From assembly GCA_012719445.1 (NCBI GenBank), contig JAAYAH010000037.1, positions 62,001-126,000 on the forward strand: a stretch of 64,000 nt of DNA. Reading direction: 5' to 3'. Source of the stretch: Actinomycetales bacterium. GTDB taxonomy: Bacteria > Actinomycetota > Actinomycetes > Actinomycetales > Kineosporiaceae. The notes under the pieces are model-generated. The model was not told the DNA's origin and did no database searches. It saw only the letters and a list, made by a program, of their open reading frames with translations. Position 1 is the first letter of the stretch. The number at the start of each line of letters is the position of its first letter. Position numbers and translations under genes: made by a program. This document shows positions 15,691-43,386 of this stretch, one piece after another.

Positions 15691-17863
15691 CGACGAGGTC
15701 CTCGGTGCGTGCCGGGCTCGGGTCGTCGCCGTCCGGGGTCGGGACGGCCCCCTCGTCGCTCCACCCGAGGCGCCGCTGCCACCGCTGCAGCGGTGCGGGA
15801 GCCCACCATGCGGCGGGGCCGAGCAGCCTCAGCACGGCCGGGACCAGGACCGCGCGGACCACGGTGGCGTCGACGACGATGGCGACTGCCATGCCGACCC
15901 CGATCATCTTGATGAACGTGATGCCCGAGGTGGAGAAGGCGCCGATGACCACGACGAGCAGCAGCGCCGCGCTGGTGATGATCCTCCCGGTGCGCTGCAG
16001 CCCGGCGGCGACGGCCGCGGTCGCGTCACCGGTGCTCCGCCAGTGCTCGGCGATCCGGCTGAGCAGGAACACCTCGTAGTCCATCGACAGCCCGAAGATG
16101 ATCGCGAGCATGAGGATCGGCTGGGTGGTCTCGATCGTCCCGGTCGGGGTGAAGCCGAGGAGGTCGGCCAGGTGGCCGTCCTGGAAGATCCACACCACGA
16201 CGCCGAAACTCGCTCCGATGGACACGACGTTCGCCAGGATGGCCGTCAGCGGCAGCACCACGGAGCCGAAGGCCAGGAAGAGCAGCAGGAACGTGGCGAC
16301 GGCCATGACGCCGATCATCAGCGGCAGCCGGTCGGCGATGCTCGCCCTCACGTCCACCTGGTAGGCACTGGCCCCGCCGACGAGGACCTCGACGCCGGTC
16401 GGCTCCGGCAGGTCACGGATCGCGGTGACCAGGTCGAGGGTCTCGGCGTCGAGGGCGCCGCCTGCGTGGTCGACGGCGAGCAGGGTGGCGGTCGGGGTCG
16501 AGGCCTGCGGGGTCACCGCGGTGACGCCGTCGAGCTCCTCGACAGCGGCCACGAGGGCCGTCGCGGCGTCCGGGCCGCCCTCGACGAGGACCGAGATCGG
16601 GTAGGCGTCCGTGCCGCGGAACTGCTCGCGCATGATCTCGTCCACCACCCGGGCCTCGGCTCCCTCGGGCAGGGCCCGGGTGTCGATGCCGCCGAACTCG
16701 GCCCGGAGGAAGGGTGCCCCGAGGGTCAGCAGCAGGGCGACGGCGGTACCGGCGAACACCACCGGGCGGCGCATGACGACGCGGGCGAACCGGGCCCAGC
16801 CGTCCCGTCCGCCACCGGCGGACCTCCGGCGGAACCGGGGGAGCCGCAGCGCGTCCAGCCGATGGTCGAGCACCGCGAGCACGGCGGGGAGCAGGGTGAG
16901 CGCCGACACCAGCGCGACGAGGACCGCGGCGATCCCGCCGAAGGCCATCGAGCGCAGGAAGACCTGGGGGAAGAGCAGCAGACCGGCCAGCGAGCCGGCG
17001 ACGGTGACCCCGGACACGACGACGGTGCGGCCCGCCGTCGCCATGGTCGCGGCGAGGGCGTCACCGAGGTCGAGCCTGGCCCGGCGCTCCTCGCGGAACC
17101 GGCTCACCACGAAGAGCGCGTAGTCGATCGAGAGTCCCAACCCGAGCAGGGTGACGATGTTGACCGCGAAGACGGAGACGTCGGTGATCTCGGCGAGGCC
17201 GCGCAGGATGGCGAAGGATCCCAGCATGGTGGCCACGCCCACGAGGAGGGGGACGCCCGCGGCGACGGCACTGCCGAAGATGATCACGAGCAGTACGAGC
17301 AGGATCGGCAGCGACAGCCCCTCCGCCCGGCCGAGGTCGGCCGAGACCTGCTCGCTGATCTGCCCGTTCGTCGCCGCCTCCCCGCCGAGCCGGACCTGCA
17401 GCCCGGCCCCGACGGAGCGCAGCATCGGCTCGATCTCCTCGTAGGCGGTCACCCGGTCACCGTGGTTCCTCCCGGCCAGTTGGACGGCGGCGATGGTGTC
17501 GCGCCGGTCGGTCGAGACCAGGGCGGGCGAGCCGCCGCTGTTCCAGTAGGTGGTGACCCGGGTGACCGCCTCGGGCGGCAGGGCGTCGAGCGCCCGGGTG
17601 ACGGCGTCCCGGTACCCCGGGTCGTCGACGGTGCGGTCGGGGCTGGAGTACAGCACGACGAGGTCGGTCGCCTGGCGGCCGACGGTCGCCTCCACCCGGG
17701 CCTCGATCCGGGTGGACTCGGCGTTCGGGTCCTCGAAGCCGCCGGGGATCAGCGTCGAGAACACCGACGCCCCCCACACCGCCGCCACGGTCACCGCCAC
17801 GGCGCCCGTGACGAGAACGACCCATCTCCAGCGCACCACCACGCGGCCCCATCCTGCGAGCAT
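15680..17863 (-). CDS. MMPL family RND transporter
   Basis: A 727-residue inner-membrane exporter with the two-fold RND layout of MmpL/YdfJ proteins: one TM segment, a periplasmic domain, five to six TM segments, then the same again. The proton-relay Asp-Tyr pairs are conserved in both halves (GLGLSIDYALFVVSRFREER and FGLSMDYEVFLLSRI). Relatives export lipids or hydrophobic compounds driven by proton motive force; the substrate here is unknown. The ATG at 17863 has GGGAG 9 nt upstream. It is divergent from a TetR regulator with repeated operator-like half-sites in the shared spacer, the usual arrangement for a locally repressed exporter. Confidence 0.9.
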   Translation of the reverse strand: MLAGWGRVVVRWRWVVLVTGAVAVTVAAVWGASVFSTLIPGGFEDPNAESTRIEARVEATVGRQATDLVVLYSSPDRTVDDPGYRDAVTRALDALPPEAVTRVTTYWNSGGSPALVSTDRRDTIAAVQLAGRNHGDRVTAYEEIEPMLRSVGAGLQVRLGGEAATNGQISEQVSADLGRAEGLSLPILLVLLVIIFGSAVAAGVPLLVGVATMLGSFAILRGLAEITDVSVFAVNIVTLLGLGLSIDYALFVVSRFREERRARLDLGDALAATMATAGRTVVVSGVTVAGSLAGLLLFPQVFLRSMAFGGIAAVLVALVSALTLLPAVLAVLDHRLDALRLPRFRRRSAGGGRDGWARFARVVMRRPVVFAGTAVALLLTLGAPFLRAEFGGIDTRALPEGAEARVVDEIMREQFRGTDAYPISVLVEGGPDAATALVAAVEELDGVTAVTPQASTPTATLLAVDHAGGALDAETLDLVTAIRDLPEPTGVEVLVGGASAYQVDVRASIADRLPLMIGVMAVATFLLLFLAFGSVVLPLTAILANVVSIGASFGVVVWIFQDGHLADLLGFTPTGTIETTQPILMLAIIFGLSMDYEVFLLSRIAEHWRSTGDATAAVAAGLQRTGRIITSAALLLVVVIGAFSTSGITFIKMIGVGMAVAIVVDATVVRAVLVPAVLRLLGPAAWWAPAPLQRWQRRLGWSDEGAVPTPDGDDPSPARTEDLVGVS

Positions 17864-22205: not shown

Positions 22206-23456
22206 TCACCGTACGGTGCTGTCCGTTCCCTCCTCGACCCCCTCGGCGACCTCGAGCGACTGGCGGGCGATCTCGCGCTCCTCGTCCGTCGGTACGACGA
22301 GGACCGCGACCGGCGCGCCGTCCGGGCTGATGACGCGTGGCCCGGACGCACCGGCCTCGTTGCGCTCGGGGTCCACGCGGATCCCGAGCCCCTCGAGCCC
22401 GGCCAGACTGCGCCGACGCACCGCGGGGCTGTTCTCCCCGACCCCGGCGGTGAACGTCACGGCGTCGAGACGTCCGAGGACGGCGAGGTAGGCCCCGACG
22501 TAGCAGCGGATCCGGTAACAGTAGACGTCCAGCGCGAGCGTGGCATCCCTGTCCCCGGACTCCGATCGGGCGATCACCTCGCGCATATCGGTCACTCCGG
22601 CCATACCGAGCAGGCCGCTGCGCCGGTTGAGGGCGTCGTCGACGTCCTGGCCGCTCATCCCGGCGACCCGGCAGAGGTGGGCGGGCAGGGCCGGGTCGAC
22701 GTCGCCGCTCCTGGTGCCCATGACCAGCCCCTGCAGCGGGGTCAGCCCCATCGAGGTGTCCACGCTGCGGCCTCCGGCTACGGCGCAGGCACTCGCCCCG
22801 TTGCCGAGGTGCAGGACGACGGAGTTGACCTGCTCCAGCGGCCGGCCGAGGACACGGGCGGTCTCCCGGGAGACGTAGGCGTGCGAGGTGCCGTGGAAGC
22901 CGTACCGGCGGATCCCGTACCGGTGCCGCCACTCCCGCGGGACGGCGTAGGTCGCCGCGACCTCCGGCAGCGTGGCGTGGAAGGCGGTGTCGAAGATCGC
23001 GACGTGGGGGACGTGGGGGAGGGTGTCCCTCGCCACCCGGATCCCCTCGATGTTCGCCGGGTTGTGCAGGGGGGCCAACACGGACATCTTCTCCAGGGTC
23101 CCCAGCAGCTCGTCGTCGACGACCATCGGCTTCCGGAACTGCTCCCCGCCGTGGACGACCCGGTGCCCCACCGCGGCCAGCCCCGCCGTGGCCAGGTCAG
23201 GGCCGTGCGCGGTGAACGCGTCCCGGATGGCGGTCAGCGCCTCGGCGTGGTCCCTCGCCAGGACCGGTCCCTCGTGGGCGCGATCGCCGCCGGTGTGCGT
23301 GCGGTGGGTCAGCCGGGACTCCGGGGTTCCCAGCCGCTCGACGGCGCCGCGGGCGAGCACCAGCCCGGTCGCCGGTTCGAGGAGGCGGTACTTCACCGAG
23401 GAGGACCCGCAGTTGAGGACGAGGACTCTGCTCCCTGCCGTCCGGCTCCCTGTCAT
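22206..23456 (-). CDS. ackA: Acetate kinase
   Basis: A 416-residue acetate kinase (ASKHA fold) that interconverts acetate plus ATP and acetyl phosphate plus ADP. Signatures: VLVLNCGSSSVKY near the N-terminus, GHRVVHGGEQF, IFDTAFHATLP, GFHGTSHAYV, HLGNGASACAV, MGTRSGDVDP, and FTAGVGENSP with the metal-binding Glu. The first residues (MTGSRTAGSR) match the peptide encoded by the 32-bp repeat just upstream. The start codon overlaps the stop of the last repeat-encoded mini-ORF (ATGA), so translation probably depends on coupling from pta. Confidence 0.95.
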   Translation of the reverse strand: MTGSRTAGSRVLVLNCGSSSVKYRLLEPATGLVLARGAVERLGTPESRLTHRTHTGGDRAHEGPVLARDHAEALTAIRDAFTAHGPDLATAGLAAVGHRVVHGGEQFRKPMVVDDELLGTLEKMSVLAPLHNPANIEGIRVARDTLPHVPHVAIFDTAFHATLPEVAATYAVPREWRHRYGIRRYGFHGTSHAYVSRETARVLGRPLEQVNSVVLHLGNGASACAVAGGRSVDTSMGLTPLQGLVMGTRSGDVDPALPAHLCRVAGMSGQDVDDALNRRSGLLGMAGVTDMREVIARSESGDRDATLALDVYCYRIRCYVGAYLAVLGRLDAVTFTAGVGENSPAVRRRSLAGLEGLGIRVDPERNEAGASGPRVISPDGAPVAVLVVPTDEEREIARQSLEVAEGVEEGTDSTVR

Positions 23457-23588
23457 CCGGCGCTCCCTGTCGTCCGGCTCCGTGTCATCCGGCGCTCCCT
23501 GTCGTCCGGCTCCGTGTCATCCGGCGCTCCCTGTCGTCCGGCTCCGTGTCATCCGGCGCTCCCTGTCGTCCGGTTCCGTGTCATCCGG
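23451..23588 (-). repeat. 32-bp tandem repeat forming a chain of four 11-codon ORFs between pta and ackA
   Basis: Four complete 32-bp units plus a partial one fill the whole pta-ackA spacer. On the minus strand each unit reads as an 11-codon ORF (MTRSRTTGSAG, or N for S in the first) whose TGA overlaps the next ATG as ATGA. The ORFs are 23584-23549, 23552-23517, 23520-23485 and 23488-23453. The pta stop (23583-23581) overlaps the first ATG and the last stop overlaps the ackA ATG (23456). In all but the first, the ATG has GGGAG 6 nt upstream. The unit closely resembles the first 32 bases of ackA, so it arose by duplicating an ancestral pta/ackA ATGA overlap. Translation of these ORFs is inferred. 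Confidence 0.88.
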
Positions 23589-25782
23589 CACCCACGACAG
23601 GGAGGTTCGTCGTCATCGGCTGCTCCTGCTCCTGCTCCGGCACGGGCTTGCGGGGCGGAGCCGGCGTGGTCGCGGGCAGGGCGAGGGCGACGGCGGGGAC
23701 CTCCTGCGCCCAGGTGAGCTGGAGCTGGGCCTGCACCGCGGTGATGGCGACGGTGGTGACGATGTCCCGGACCGTCGCTCCCCTGGACAGGTCGTTCACC
23801 GGCATCCGCAGACCCTGCAGGACCGGTCCGACGGCGACGGCACCGGCGCTGCGCTGCACCGCCTTGTAGGTGTTATTGCCCGTGTTGAGGTCGGGGAACA
23901 CGAAGACCGTCGCCCGGCCGGCGACGCTGCTCTCCGGGAGCTTGGTGCTGGCGACGCCCGCGTCGATGGCCGCGTCGTACTGGATCGGCCCCTCGACCTG
24001 GAGCTGCGGGGCGCGCTCGCGGACGAGCTGGGTGGCGGTGCGCACCTTGTCGACGTCGGCGCCCCGGCCGGACTCGCCGGTGGAGTAGGACAGCATCGCG
24101 ATCCGCGGCTCGACCCCGAAGGCGGCCGCCGTCCCGGCGGAGGAGATCGCGATGTCGGCGAGCTGCTCCGCGGTGGGGTCGGGGTTCACCGCGCAGTCGC
24201 CGTAGACGAGCACCCTGTCGGCGAGGCACATGAAGAACACGCTGCTGACCACGGAGACACCGGGGACGGTCCGGATCACCTGGAAGGCGGGCCGGATGGT
24301 GTGCGCCGTGGTGTGCGAGGCCCCCGACACCATCCCGTCGGCGATGCCGAGGGCCACCATGAGGGTCCCGGCGTAGGAGACGTCGGTGACCATGTCGAGG
24401 GCGGCGTCCATGGCGACGCCCTTGTGGGCCCGGAGCCGGGCGTACTCCGCGGCGAGCTGGTGTCGGAGCTCGTCGTCGCAGGGGTCGAGCACCTGGCAGG
24501 CCGAGACGTCGACCCCGGCGAGCGCGGCGGCCCGCTCCACCGCCTCCGGTGCCCCGAGCAGGATGATGTCGGCGATGTCGCGGTGCAGGACCTGCTCGGC
24601 GGCGCGGAGCACCCTCGGCTCGGTACCCTCCGGGAGCACGATCCGCTTGCGCTGGGCCCTGGCCCGTTGCACGAGTTCGTGCTCGAACATGAGCGGGGTC
24701 ACCGCGTGGCTGCGGGCGAGGTCGAGCCGGTCGAGCAGCCGCGCCCCGTCGATGTGCCGGTCGAAGAGCTCCAGTGCGGCCTTGACCTTGCCGGGCGAGG
24801 AGTCGGTGAGCCTGCCCCTTGTGCCCGCGGCGACGGTCGCCGCCTCGAAGGTGTTCAGCGGGGTCGCGCCGACCGGCAGGCTGGTGCCGAGGCCGTCGAC
24901 GAGCCGGCGGACGATCGGCTCCGGTTGCAGTCCCCCGGTGAGCAGGACCCCGGCCAGCCGGGGGAAGGTCTGCGAGTGGTGGGCCATGAGGATGCCGACG
25001 AGCATGTCCGAGCGGTCACCGGGGACGATGGCGAGGCAGCCCGGCCGCAGGTGCTGGAGCACCCGGGGCAGGGTCATCGCCGCGACGACGAACGACAGCG
25101 CCTCCGACTCGAGCCGGCGCGGCGAGCCGAACAGCGTCCCGGCGCGGCAGGCCTGGAAGACCTGACCCACCTGCGGGGCGGAGAGCAGGGGGAGCTCCGG
25201 GAGCACCTCGACGTTCGGGAAGTGGGACAGCGCGGCCCGGATGGTGTCCTGCTCGTGCCGGGGGACCCTGGTCGCCACCACGCCGAGGACCTCGCAGGAG
25301 CGGGCGGCCAGCGAGTTCAGGGCGACGTCCATGGTCGCCGCGACGTCCTGGGGCGAGCGGTCGTGCGCGGTGAGGACCAGCAGGAACGGCGACCCGAGGT
25401 TCACCGCGATCATGGCGTTGACGTCGAGCTCGGTCGGCGCGCCCGGGTCGGTGTAGTCGGTGCCGATGACGAGGACCGCGTCGTGCCGCCGCTCGACCTC
25501 GGCGAACCGGTCGACGATGGTCTCCATCGCGGCGGCCGGGTCGGCGTGGACGTCGTCGTAGGTGACCCCGCAGCACGCGGCCGCGGCGGTGTCGTCCGGG
25601 ATGAGCTGGGGGTACCGCTCGCGGAACAGGGTGACCAGGGGGTCGATGGCACCGGCCCGGACCACGGGCAGGAACAGCCCCACCTTGCCGACCCGGCGAG
25701 CCATGGCGTCGAGGACACCCAGGGCGACGACCGACTTACCGCTCTCCGGCCCTGCTCCCGCGACGTAGAGGGATCTCGCCAT
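23581..25782 (-). CDS. pta: Phosphate acetyltransferase, long form
   Basis: A 733-residue phosphotransacetylase that converts acetyl-CoA plus phosphate to acetyl phosphate plus CoA. The N-terminal part is a P-loop AAA_26 domain (SLYVAGAGPESGKS), followed by a DRTGG-like regulatory domain (about 215-320: PGCLAIVPGDRSDML). The C-terminal catalytic PTA domain (about 395-710) begins RKRIVLPEGTEPRVLRAAE, with SGASHTTAHTIRPAFQVI, LSYSTGESGRG, and KLPESSVAGRATVFVFPDLNTGN, where key blocks are FPDLNTGN and PVLQGL. The ATG at 25782 has TAGCCT 7 nt upstream on the minus strand, suggesting a leaderless mRNA. Its stop codon is the entry into the repeat chain that leads to ackA. Confidence 0.94.
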   Translation of the reverse strand: MARSLYVAGAGPESGKSVVALGVLDAMARRVGKVGLFLPVVRAGAIDPLVTLFRERYPQLIPDDTAAAACCGVTYDDVHADPAAAMETIVDRFAEVERRHDAVLVIGTDYTDPGAPTELDVNAMIAVNLGSPFLLVLTAHDRSPQDVAATMDVALNSLAARSCEVLGVVATRVPRHEQDTIRAALSHFPNVEVLPELPLLSAPQVGQVFQACRAGTLFGSPRRLESEALSFVVAAMTLPRVLQHLRPGCLAIVPGDRSDMLVGILMAHHSQTFPRLAGVLLTGGLQPEPIVRRLVDGLGTSLPVGATPLNTFEAATVAAGTRGRLTDSSPGKVKAALELFDRHIDGARLLDRLDLARSHAVTPLMFEHELVQRARAQRKRIVLPEGTEPRVLRAAEQVLHRDIADIILLGAPEAVERAAALAGVDVSACQVLDPCDDELRHQLAAEYARLRAHKGVAMDAALDMVTDVSYAGTLMVALGIADGMVSGASHTTAHTIRPAFQVIRTVPGVSVVSSVFFMCLADRVLVYGDCAVNPDPTAEQLADIAISSAGTAAAFGVEPRIAMLSYSTGESGRGADVDKVRTATQLVRERAPQLQVEGPIQYDAAIDAGVASTKLPESSVAGRATVFVFPDLNTGNNTYKAVQRSAGAVAVGPVLQGLRMPVNDLSRGATVRDIVTTVAITAVQAQLQLTWAQEVPAVALALPATTPAPPRKPVPEQEQEQPMTTNLPVVGAG

Positions 25783-25861
25783 GACCACGAGGCTATCCGG
25801 CCGAACCCCGGCGATCGACGACGGTTGTGTGACCCTCGCCGCTCCGGTGGGGCTCCGGCGG

Positions 25862-42936: not shown

Positions 42937-43386
42937 TCACGGCAGGCCGAGCCCCGGTGCCTCGATGGCGGGGCAGGTGTCCATGACGACGTCGAGCCCC
43001 GCCGCACGGGCCCTCGCCGCCGCGGCCTCGTCGATCACCCCGAGTTGCAGCCACACGGCCCCGGCGCCGACGGCGATCGCCTCGTCCACGATCGCCCCCG
43101 CGAGGTCGGAGCGCACGAAGACGTCGACGACGTCGACGCGCCCCGGCACCTCGGCCAGGCCGGCGTACCCCTTCGCCCCGTGGACCGTGTCGGCCCGCGG
43201 GTGCACCGGAACGATCCTCATGCCGAGCTGGTCGGCCAGGTAGCCGGCGATCCGGTACGCGACCCGGCTCGGGTTCTGGGACAACCCCACCACAGCCCAG
43301 GTCCCCGGGGTGGTCAGCAGTCGGCGGATCACCTCGGGGTCGTTGACGTGCCGTCCGGCGGGCGCGGCCTCGATCGGGGAGTCCAT
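42937..43386 (-). CDS. CoA-binding domain protein (YccU-like)
   Basis: A 149-residue Rossmann-fold protein of the CoA_binding_2 family. WAVVGLSQNPSRVAYRIAGYL (about 30-50) gives the nucleotide loop, VPVHPRADTVHGAKGYAGLAEVPGRVDVVDVFV the central part, and VWLQLGVIDEAAAARARAAG plus DTCPAIE the C-terminus. Relatives bind CoA; the physiological role is not established. CAGACT (43398-43393, minus) lies 6 nt before the ATG. It is followed closely by the LCP gene on the same strand. Confidence 0.88.
   Translation of the reverse strand: MDSPIEAAPAGRHVNDPEVIRRLLTTPGTWAVVGLSQNPSRVAYRIAGYLADQLGMRIVPVHPRADTVHGAKGYAGLAEVPGRVDVVDVFVRSDLAGAIVDEAIAVGAGAVWLQLGVIDEAAAARARAAGLDVVMDTCPAIEAPGLGLP

Follow-up and report, generated by a model that had tools for sequence, protein, structure and literature searches.

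A chain of repeat-built mini-ORFs between pta and ackA as a candidate re-initiation relay

The pta and ackA genes of the Actinomycetales bacterium studied here are separated by a 124-nt insert made of tandem repeats, and short ORFs run through this insert from end to end. Does such an insert cut the translational coupling of the two genes, preserve it, or tune it? We addressed this question in the window, by which we mean the whole 64,000-nt stretch of DNA analyzed, and by comparison with other parts of the same genome and with related genomes.

Anatomy and probable origin of the array

The upstream gene, pta (phosphate acetyltransferase), occupies positions 23581 to 25788 of the minus strand, with GTG 25788, the first in-frame start, as its putative start codon; its product matches PTA_PTB (PF01515; 3.6e-126). 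The downstream gene, ackA (acetate kinase), lies at 22206 to 23456 on the same strand, and its product matches Acetate_kinase (PF00871; 3.5e-144). Spanning their junction is the top-scoring tandem array of the window (23430 to 23589; period 32, 5.0 copies, 97% match, score 299, the first of 57 rows). In register, it consists of five 32-bp units (23431 to 23590, minus strand), with no differences among the middle three and a few changed bases in the outer two; as a tandem array of near-identical units it has the makeup of a VNTR or minisatellite. The copy number is that of the assembly, a draft of 283 contigs. When used as a DNA query against its own genome, the array matched a single place, itself.

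The pta stop codon TGA (23583 to 23581) lies inside an ATGA (23584 to 23581, minus strand), from which four 11-codon mini-ORFs, chained by 4-nt ATGA overlaps, lead to the ackA ATG at 23456. Mini-ORF 1 (23549 to 23584) reads MTRNRTTGSAG and overlaps the pta stop; mini-ORFs 2 (23517 to 23552), 3 (23485 to 23520), and 4 (23453 to 23488) all read MTRSRTTGSAG, and the TGA of the last overlaps the ackA ATG (all on the minus strand). The 4-nt stop/start overlap typical of termination-reinitiation pairs is thus present five times in series. Coordinates and translations confirmed this chain as the initial annotation had described it, along with the placement of an SD-like GGGAG 6 nt before the ATG of ackA (23463 to 23467) and of mini-ORFs 4 (23495 to 23499), 3 (23527 to 23531), and 2 (23559 to 23563), all on the minus strand, and its absence before mini-ORF 1. 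Scored against an anti-SD string, the ackA site reached -8.0 kcal/mol, an ordinary value beside the median of -8.15 in 88 directly overlapping pta-ackA junctions, and mini-ORF 1 has a weaker site (-6.3).

Within the open ackA frame, ATG 23456 is the sole ATG, GTG, or TTG before the conserved VLVLN, and the frame is closed by a stop 31 codons before the V of that motif. Translation from this ATG begins MTGSRTAGSRVLVLN, and the last repeat unit holds both the start and the first codons. An independent ackA promoter together with a start beyond the repeat had been named at the outset as a finding that would speak against a relay. Because 23456 is the only such codon in frame, a start outside the repeat is excluded for ATG, GTG, and TTG, and a scan with the sigma-70 consensus alone detected no sigma-70-like promoter between 23000 and 24200.

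The 32-bp unit is itself a dimer of a 15-bp half and a 17-bp half that are identical at 13 of 15 positions, a likeness that none of 2,000 shuffles reached and that is visible in the first ten AckA residues (MTGSR-TAGSR). If the repeats are removed in thought, what is left is an ordinary ATGA junction and an AckA that begins MTGSRVLVLN, similar to its relatives. The dimer and the overlap seen in relatives support the earlier proposal that the unit was copied from the pta/ackA junction and the first ackA codons. From these features we infer an order of duplication events. The ancestral operon would have had an ordinary 4-nt pta/ackA overlap, as in most of the relatives compared; a 15-bp in-frame duplication would have doubled the first ackA codons, from MTGSR to MTGSR-TAGSR; a 32-bp segment across the ATGA would then have been multiplied in tandem; and each copy, 32 being 2 mod 3, would have turned into an ORF of 11 codons, its stop overlapping the start of the following one. 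The identity of the middle units and the slight differences at the ends suggest recent growth from the middle. A possible decayed unit 0 in the 3' end of pta (23585 to 23616, minus strand) is weak: an ATGA lies 32 nt before the pta ATGA, and 19 of 32 bases equal those of the next unit by hand count.

How much of this architecture follows from arithmetic? When every unit carries an ATGA and measures 2 mod 3, each ATG necessarily meets the following TGA in frame, so that a relay is almost automatic and can appear without selection. In simulations, about 81% of random 32-bp units at 72% GC stayed open, and random units of 2 mod 3, with lengths from 20 to 77, retained the relay in 63 to 87% of trials. 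By the same arithmetic, a unit of 0 mod 3 would lengthen AckA and one of 1 mod 3 would break the chain. The relay survives any copy number, and the initial claim that copy number can change free of frame trouble is borne out, the unit being 2 mod 3 and carrying its own ATGA. All five units keep the ATGA and the open frame, but with so few differences among them this cannot be read as a sign of selection. The array exceeds chance, and the chaining of its ORFs is largely an arithmetic consequence of unit length. Since such a chain is the expected product of duplicating an ATGA junction in a unit of 2 mod 3, the chain itself is no evidence of tuning.

Mini-ORF chains in the genome, in relatives, and across the order

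A second relay is present in the same genome, where three 26-bp units (G000:C104:25930-26011, or L213 5930-6011; plus strand) lead from pncB to pncA. The pncB gene (NAPRTase_N, PF17767) ends in GTGA and is followed by the mini-ORFs VTTGPWPAR, MTTGPWPAG, and MTTGGRTAG, each closed by a stop codon, and then by pncA (Isochorismatase, PF00857; MTTRALVIVDVQNDF). The unit is unrelated in sequence to that at pta-ackA, and its length, 26, is also 2 mod 3. Strong SD-like sites precede the first mini-ORF (-16.3) and pncA (-15.0), with the middle two at -6.3. The pncB junction could be scored at 18 of 30 PncA loci, this genome included; 7 junctions have a direct -4 overlap, 9 lack RTGA, 1 is an overrun, and 1 is the relay described here.

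We counted mini-ORF chains in 1,494,600 of the 5,418,350 bases of this genome (81 pieces from contigs of inferable length, including the window and also C104, in which the second relay had already been found), using approximate gene calls from a simple codon model. Of the 664 co-directional pairs (1.49 Mb), 175 overlap directly at -4, and in 48 a chain of one to four mini-ORFs connects the two genes. Under a conservative null that retains downstream in-frame starts, chains of at least one mini-ORF were found at 33 of 115 eligible pairs, versus 26.7 ± 3.0 expected and a null maximum of 35, whereas chains of at least two were found at 15 of 115 (pta-ackA and pncB-pncA included), versus 6.7 ± 1.7 expected and a maximum of 12 in 300 simulations. 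The excess of chains of at least one is modest, and chance alone often yields single-step chains in this genome. A looser null (41 of 127 versus 18.2 ± 2.8) was rejected, since genuine start codons can be lost under it.

In 818.5 kb of the genome, with strands counted apart, tandem repeats with in-register RTGA formed 18 clusters of 0 mod 3, 13 of 2 mod 3, and 5 of 1 mod 3. By frame reading, three of these clusters lie between two coding frames: pta-ackA, pncB-pncA, and a chain in L217. The L217 chain (steps of 23, 17, and 53 nt; 16781 to 16874, plus strand) runs from the RNase HII stop GTGA to a DUF2469 gene and carries a short repeat, CGACGGCAGGGTGA, at two steps; we grade it as weak, since residue 26 is where the DUF2469 domain starts. 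Three successive ATGAs occur at 161 places in the genome, and pncB-pncA and a place in C96 were picked by eye among the matches listed, so that other relays may have escaped notice. The latter (G000:C96:73514; 29 bp, two copies) was dropped as a third candidate, its upstream frame being open for only about 80 codons and its PRiA4_ORF3-like gene starting in a different frame. A search of the genome for the SD-ATGA pair pattern matched this array alone, at three places, and the RTGA form of the pattern added two repeat-free places. Candidates for one-step relays were seen at L211 6833 (minus strand) and L332 3798 (plus strand), which look like 14-bp and 11-bp duplications, respectively, both 2 mod 3. 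Other chains between co-directional predicted genes of the window lie at 1124, 1694, 31904, and 34534 (plus strand) and at 42940 (minus strand), and many of these may be chance.

Relatives were compared at 114 pta-ackA junctions, taken from 117 of 170 AckA loci (L002-L058 and L271-L330, with L044, L054, and L292 excluded from the junction count). The loci L271-L330 are 60 of the AckA matches listed, mainly high-ranking ones that reach near the N terminus; L059-L111, which were left out, are mostly non-actinobacterial and include at least four actinobacterial loci (L063, L066, L071, and L075). The AckA comparison covered 57 other genomes, all from other genera, and one species may be present twice in the junction sample. 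A direct 4-nt overlap (ATGA, GTGA, and TTGA alike) was found at 88 of the 114 junctions, and at 22 the pta stop carries no start of this kind. The four others are the array described here, a single-step chain (L329, 71 nt), one overrun, and one dead end, so that a clean, repeat-built multistep relay is rare, at 1 of 114 junctions. The array is absent from all four same-family junctions compared (L003, L004, L005, and L007); an AckA match was found in 10 other genomes of the family, and these junctions come from 4 of them. Repeats of other lengths occur at pta-ackA in L003 (12 bp), L005, L012, and L034 (15 bp each), L007 (51 bp), and L011 (19 bp, in an overlap-free junction), and none of them forms a relay. 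In L007 (G001, same family) the repeat is in frame and extends the AckA N terminus with a Thr/Ala/Gly-rich stretch while the direct overlap is retained. In L329 (G090), the single mini-ORF is not repeat built and joins the pta GTGA to the ackA ATGA.

Period-32 ATGA triples were found in 18 of 198 genomes of the order, the 12 other same-family genomes included, versus 16 of 198 for a period-31 control; within the family, the only ones outside this genome were two places of a 16-bp repeat in G002. Eleven period-32 stretches from other genomes (L258-L268), chosen for repeated-looking units and holding 12 of the 28 places listed outside this genome, were opened. None contained a relay linking two same-strand genes, and 7 of the 11 have an opposite-strand, coding-like frame within about 100 nt downstream. 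An order-wide mod-3 rule was rejected, period 32 being about as frequent as period 31 and the opened stretches not being relays. Nine of the stretches (L258-L261 and L264-L268) carry ATGATC-containing tandem repeats at 32-bp spacing in intergenic gaps, in several genera of the order; such repeats often adjoin an opposite-strand gene, and related places are spaced 31 bp apart. Repeats of 31 bp that contain ATGA also occur in family f20 (G049, G091, G117, and G169), with many in G049 and G169. The SD-ATGA pair pattern matched in 232 of 396 genomes of the order, mostly as repeat-free single pairs among the matches listed. In L269 (G359:C9, at about 1505), two steps of similar sequence lie between two same-strand, coding-like frames; the 26-nt GTGA step is followed by a 27-nt step in frame with the gene, and it was rejected as not being a clean relay. 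A repeat-like match in L270 has period 31 and was likewise set aside.

Because this genome holds two unrelated clean cases and an excess of chains of at least two mini-ORFs, we keep open a broader reading to which we give limited credence: 2-mod-3 duplication across 4-nt overlaps would be a recurrent route to relays in this lineage, and each added step would loosen the second gene further from the first, making relay length a discrete dial.

Probable re-initiation along the chain and alternative readings

On balance, we consider it fairly probable that the array is a duplication-born re-initiation relay that preserves pta-ackA coupling and probably shifts the AckA:Pta ratio. A ribosome leaving pta would reach ackA through five successive re-initiations at -4 nt, and coupling could survive the 124-nt insert, since each mini-ORF restores the -4 geometry. 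In published work, coupling is lost at gaps of about 20 to 40 nt, and a 124-nt insert without mini-ORFs should therefore uncouple ackA. In E. coli two-reporter constructs, a 38-nt gap lowered re-initiation by 80 to 90% for two gene pairs and abolished it for a third, and the final 15 nt of the upstream gene were sufficient (PMC10666635). The dependence of coupling on distance is strong in both E. coli and H. volcanii (PMC6728339, PMC10666635), and SD motifs aid coupling to varying degrees (PMC6728339).

Every step of such a relay would lose some ribosomes, and the SD of each unit may add some. With e as the probability of re-initiation and i as the new entry per unit, a purely formal model of AckA per Pta, x(k+1) = e × x(k) + i, tends to the limit i/(1-e), and the number of units would move AckA:Pta from one-step coupling toward a plateau set by new entry. 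That ribosomes use the mini-ORFs, and that this use affects AckA, is what we infer from the sequence. An effect of the array on AckA dose is likely and would be small or moderate. Part of ackA translation may be independent of the relay, since ackA could start without it from an SD of its own that is of ordinary strength. We think that the array arose and persists mainly through tolerance, with coupling preserved.

The array could instead be an inert minisatellite, formed by slippage at a weakly constrained junction, in which case ackA would rely on the SD that it has in the last unit and the mini-ORFs would matter little. The ordinary strength of that SD fits this account, as do the relay-free repeats, in frame or noncoding, at other pta-ackA junctions (51 bp in L007, 19 bp in L011, and 15 bp in L034) and the frequency of single-step chains by chance in this genome. 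Coupling is moreover not universal in E. coli, where published overlapping pairs start partly or wholly anew (menDH with about 40% new initiation and bioBF uncoupled) (PMC6728339). In contrast, four H. volcanii pairs are strictly coupled (PMC6728339), and this, together with the strong distance dependence cited above and the retention of ATGA and open frame in all five units, highly alike as they are, argues against inertness, which we regard as unlikely.

The initial annotation had gone further than the relay that we favor and had suggested that copy number could tune ackA translation. In such a copy-number dial, the number of units would be selected to set the AckA:Pta ratio or would let a population vary it. 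Identical middle units suggest recent expansion, the chain persists at any copy number, and the recursion above gives a graded response, as a model; at low e with new entry, however, the modeled response flattens after a few units. On the sequence as it stands, such a dial seems improbable.

We consider it very improbable that the array is an RNA switch, in which the 3' end of pta (CUCCCUGUCGU) would pair with one ACGACAGGGAG and keep an SD hidden as long as no ribosome has arrived at the pta stop, which would tighten the coupling. The candidate SD-masking segment (23594 to 23604, minus strand) is an 11-nt perfect complement of ACGACAGGGAG, equaled or bettered by 20 of 4,972 random 60-nt pieces of the window; the stem is present in the MFE, and the GGGAG before mini-ORF 2 is predicted to be paired with the pta tail (0.02 unpaired). 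A single tail would nevertheless mask one SD at a time, the ackA SD is predicted to be 0.56 unpaired, and the predicted fold of the whole region does not surpass that of shuffled sequences (z, -0.95), a result on which global RNA structure at the array was rejected. Rfam, at gathering score, returned no family between 22000 and 26000. Lastly, it is scarcely credible that the repeats are DNA or RNA binding sites, such as regulator iterons, with the ORFs incidental: direct repeats at a fixed 32-bp spacing could bind proteins, but the array matches its own genome at no place other than itself, and the unit is accounted for by duplicated coding sequence.

Comparison with known systems

Under the preferred reading of a duplication-born relay, repeat expansion between two coupled genes need not disrupt their coupling, since every copy brings the overlap with it. 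Should ribosomes pass the four mini-ORFs serially, the junction would offer a natural test of repeated re-initiation efficiency, in which step number could be set against protein ratios; mycobacterial interspersed repetitive units (MIRUs) pose the same question. A 2-mod-3 unit length also provides a simple rule for finding relays, the short ORFs of which are likely skipped by ordinary annotation.

The initial annotation knew of no such arrangement. This holds for pta-ackA within the open-access literature searched, in which we recognized neither a repeat relay at pta-ackA nor tandem-repeat relays generally; it does not hold for the principle, which is known from MIRUs (PMC12548453). According to a 2025 review, the ORF within a MIRU becomes coupled at -4 nt to the gene that follows, and the effect on expression is probably minimal (PMC12548453); the array described here likewise has a repeat unit with an ORF coupled at -4 nt to the next gene. 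At senX3-regX3, several MIRU units, of 77 and 53 bp, stand between the genes (PMC4213456); both lengths are 2 mod 3 by our arithmetic. Promoter activity has been reported for that spacer as well (PMC4213456). MIRUs are apparently mobile and insert at start codons (PMC12548453), whereas the array here appears to be copied from the local junction. Nor does it form an interspersed family: it occupies one place in the genome, and the pncB-pncA unit differs in sequence.

The ATGA at every step is the standard geometry of coupling by -4 termination-reinitiation (PMC6728339, PMC10666635), but there a single overlap is involved, and here five successive overlaps and four repeat-made mini-ORFs. VNTR3239, before M. 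tuberculosis fpg1, is similar in that the length of an intergenic repeat is reported to correlate with expression (PMC2734929); it differs in that expression was measured as mRNA level and that chained mini-ORFs are not among the features described in the available portion of that report (PMC2734929). The relay principle is thus already known from MIRUs, and what differs here is the origin by local copying and the presence of two unrelated cases in one genome.
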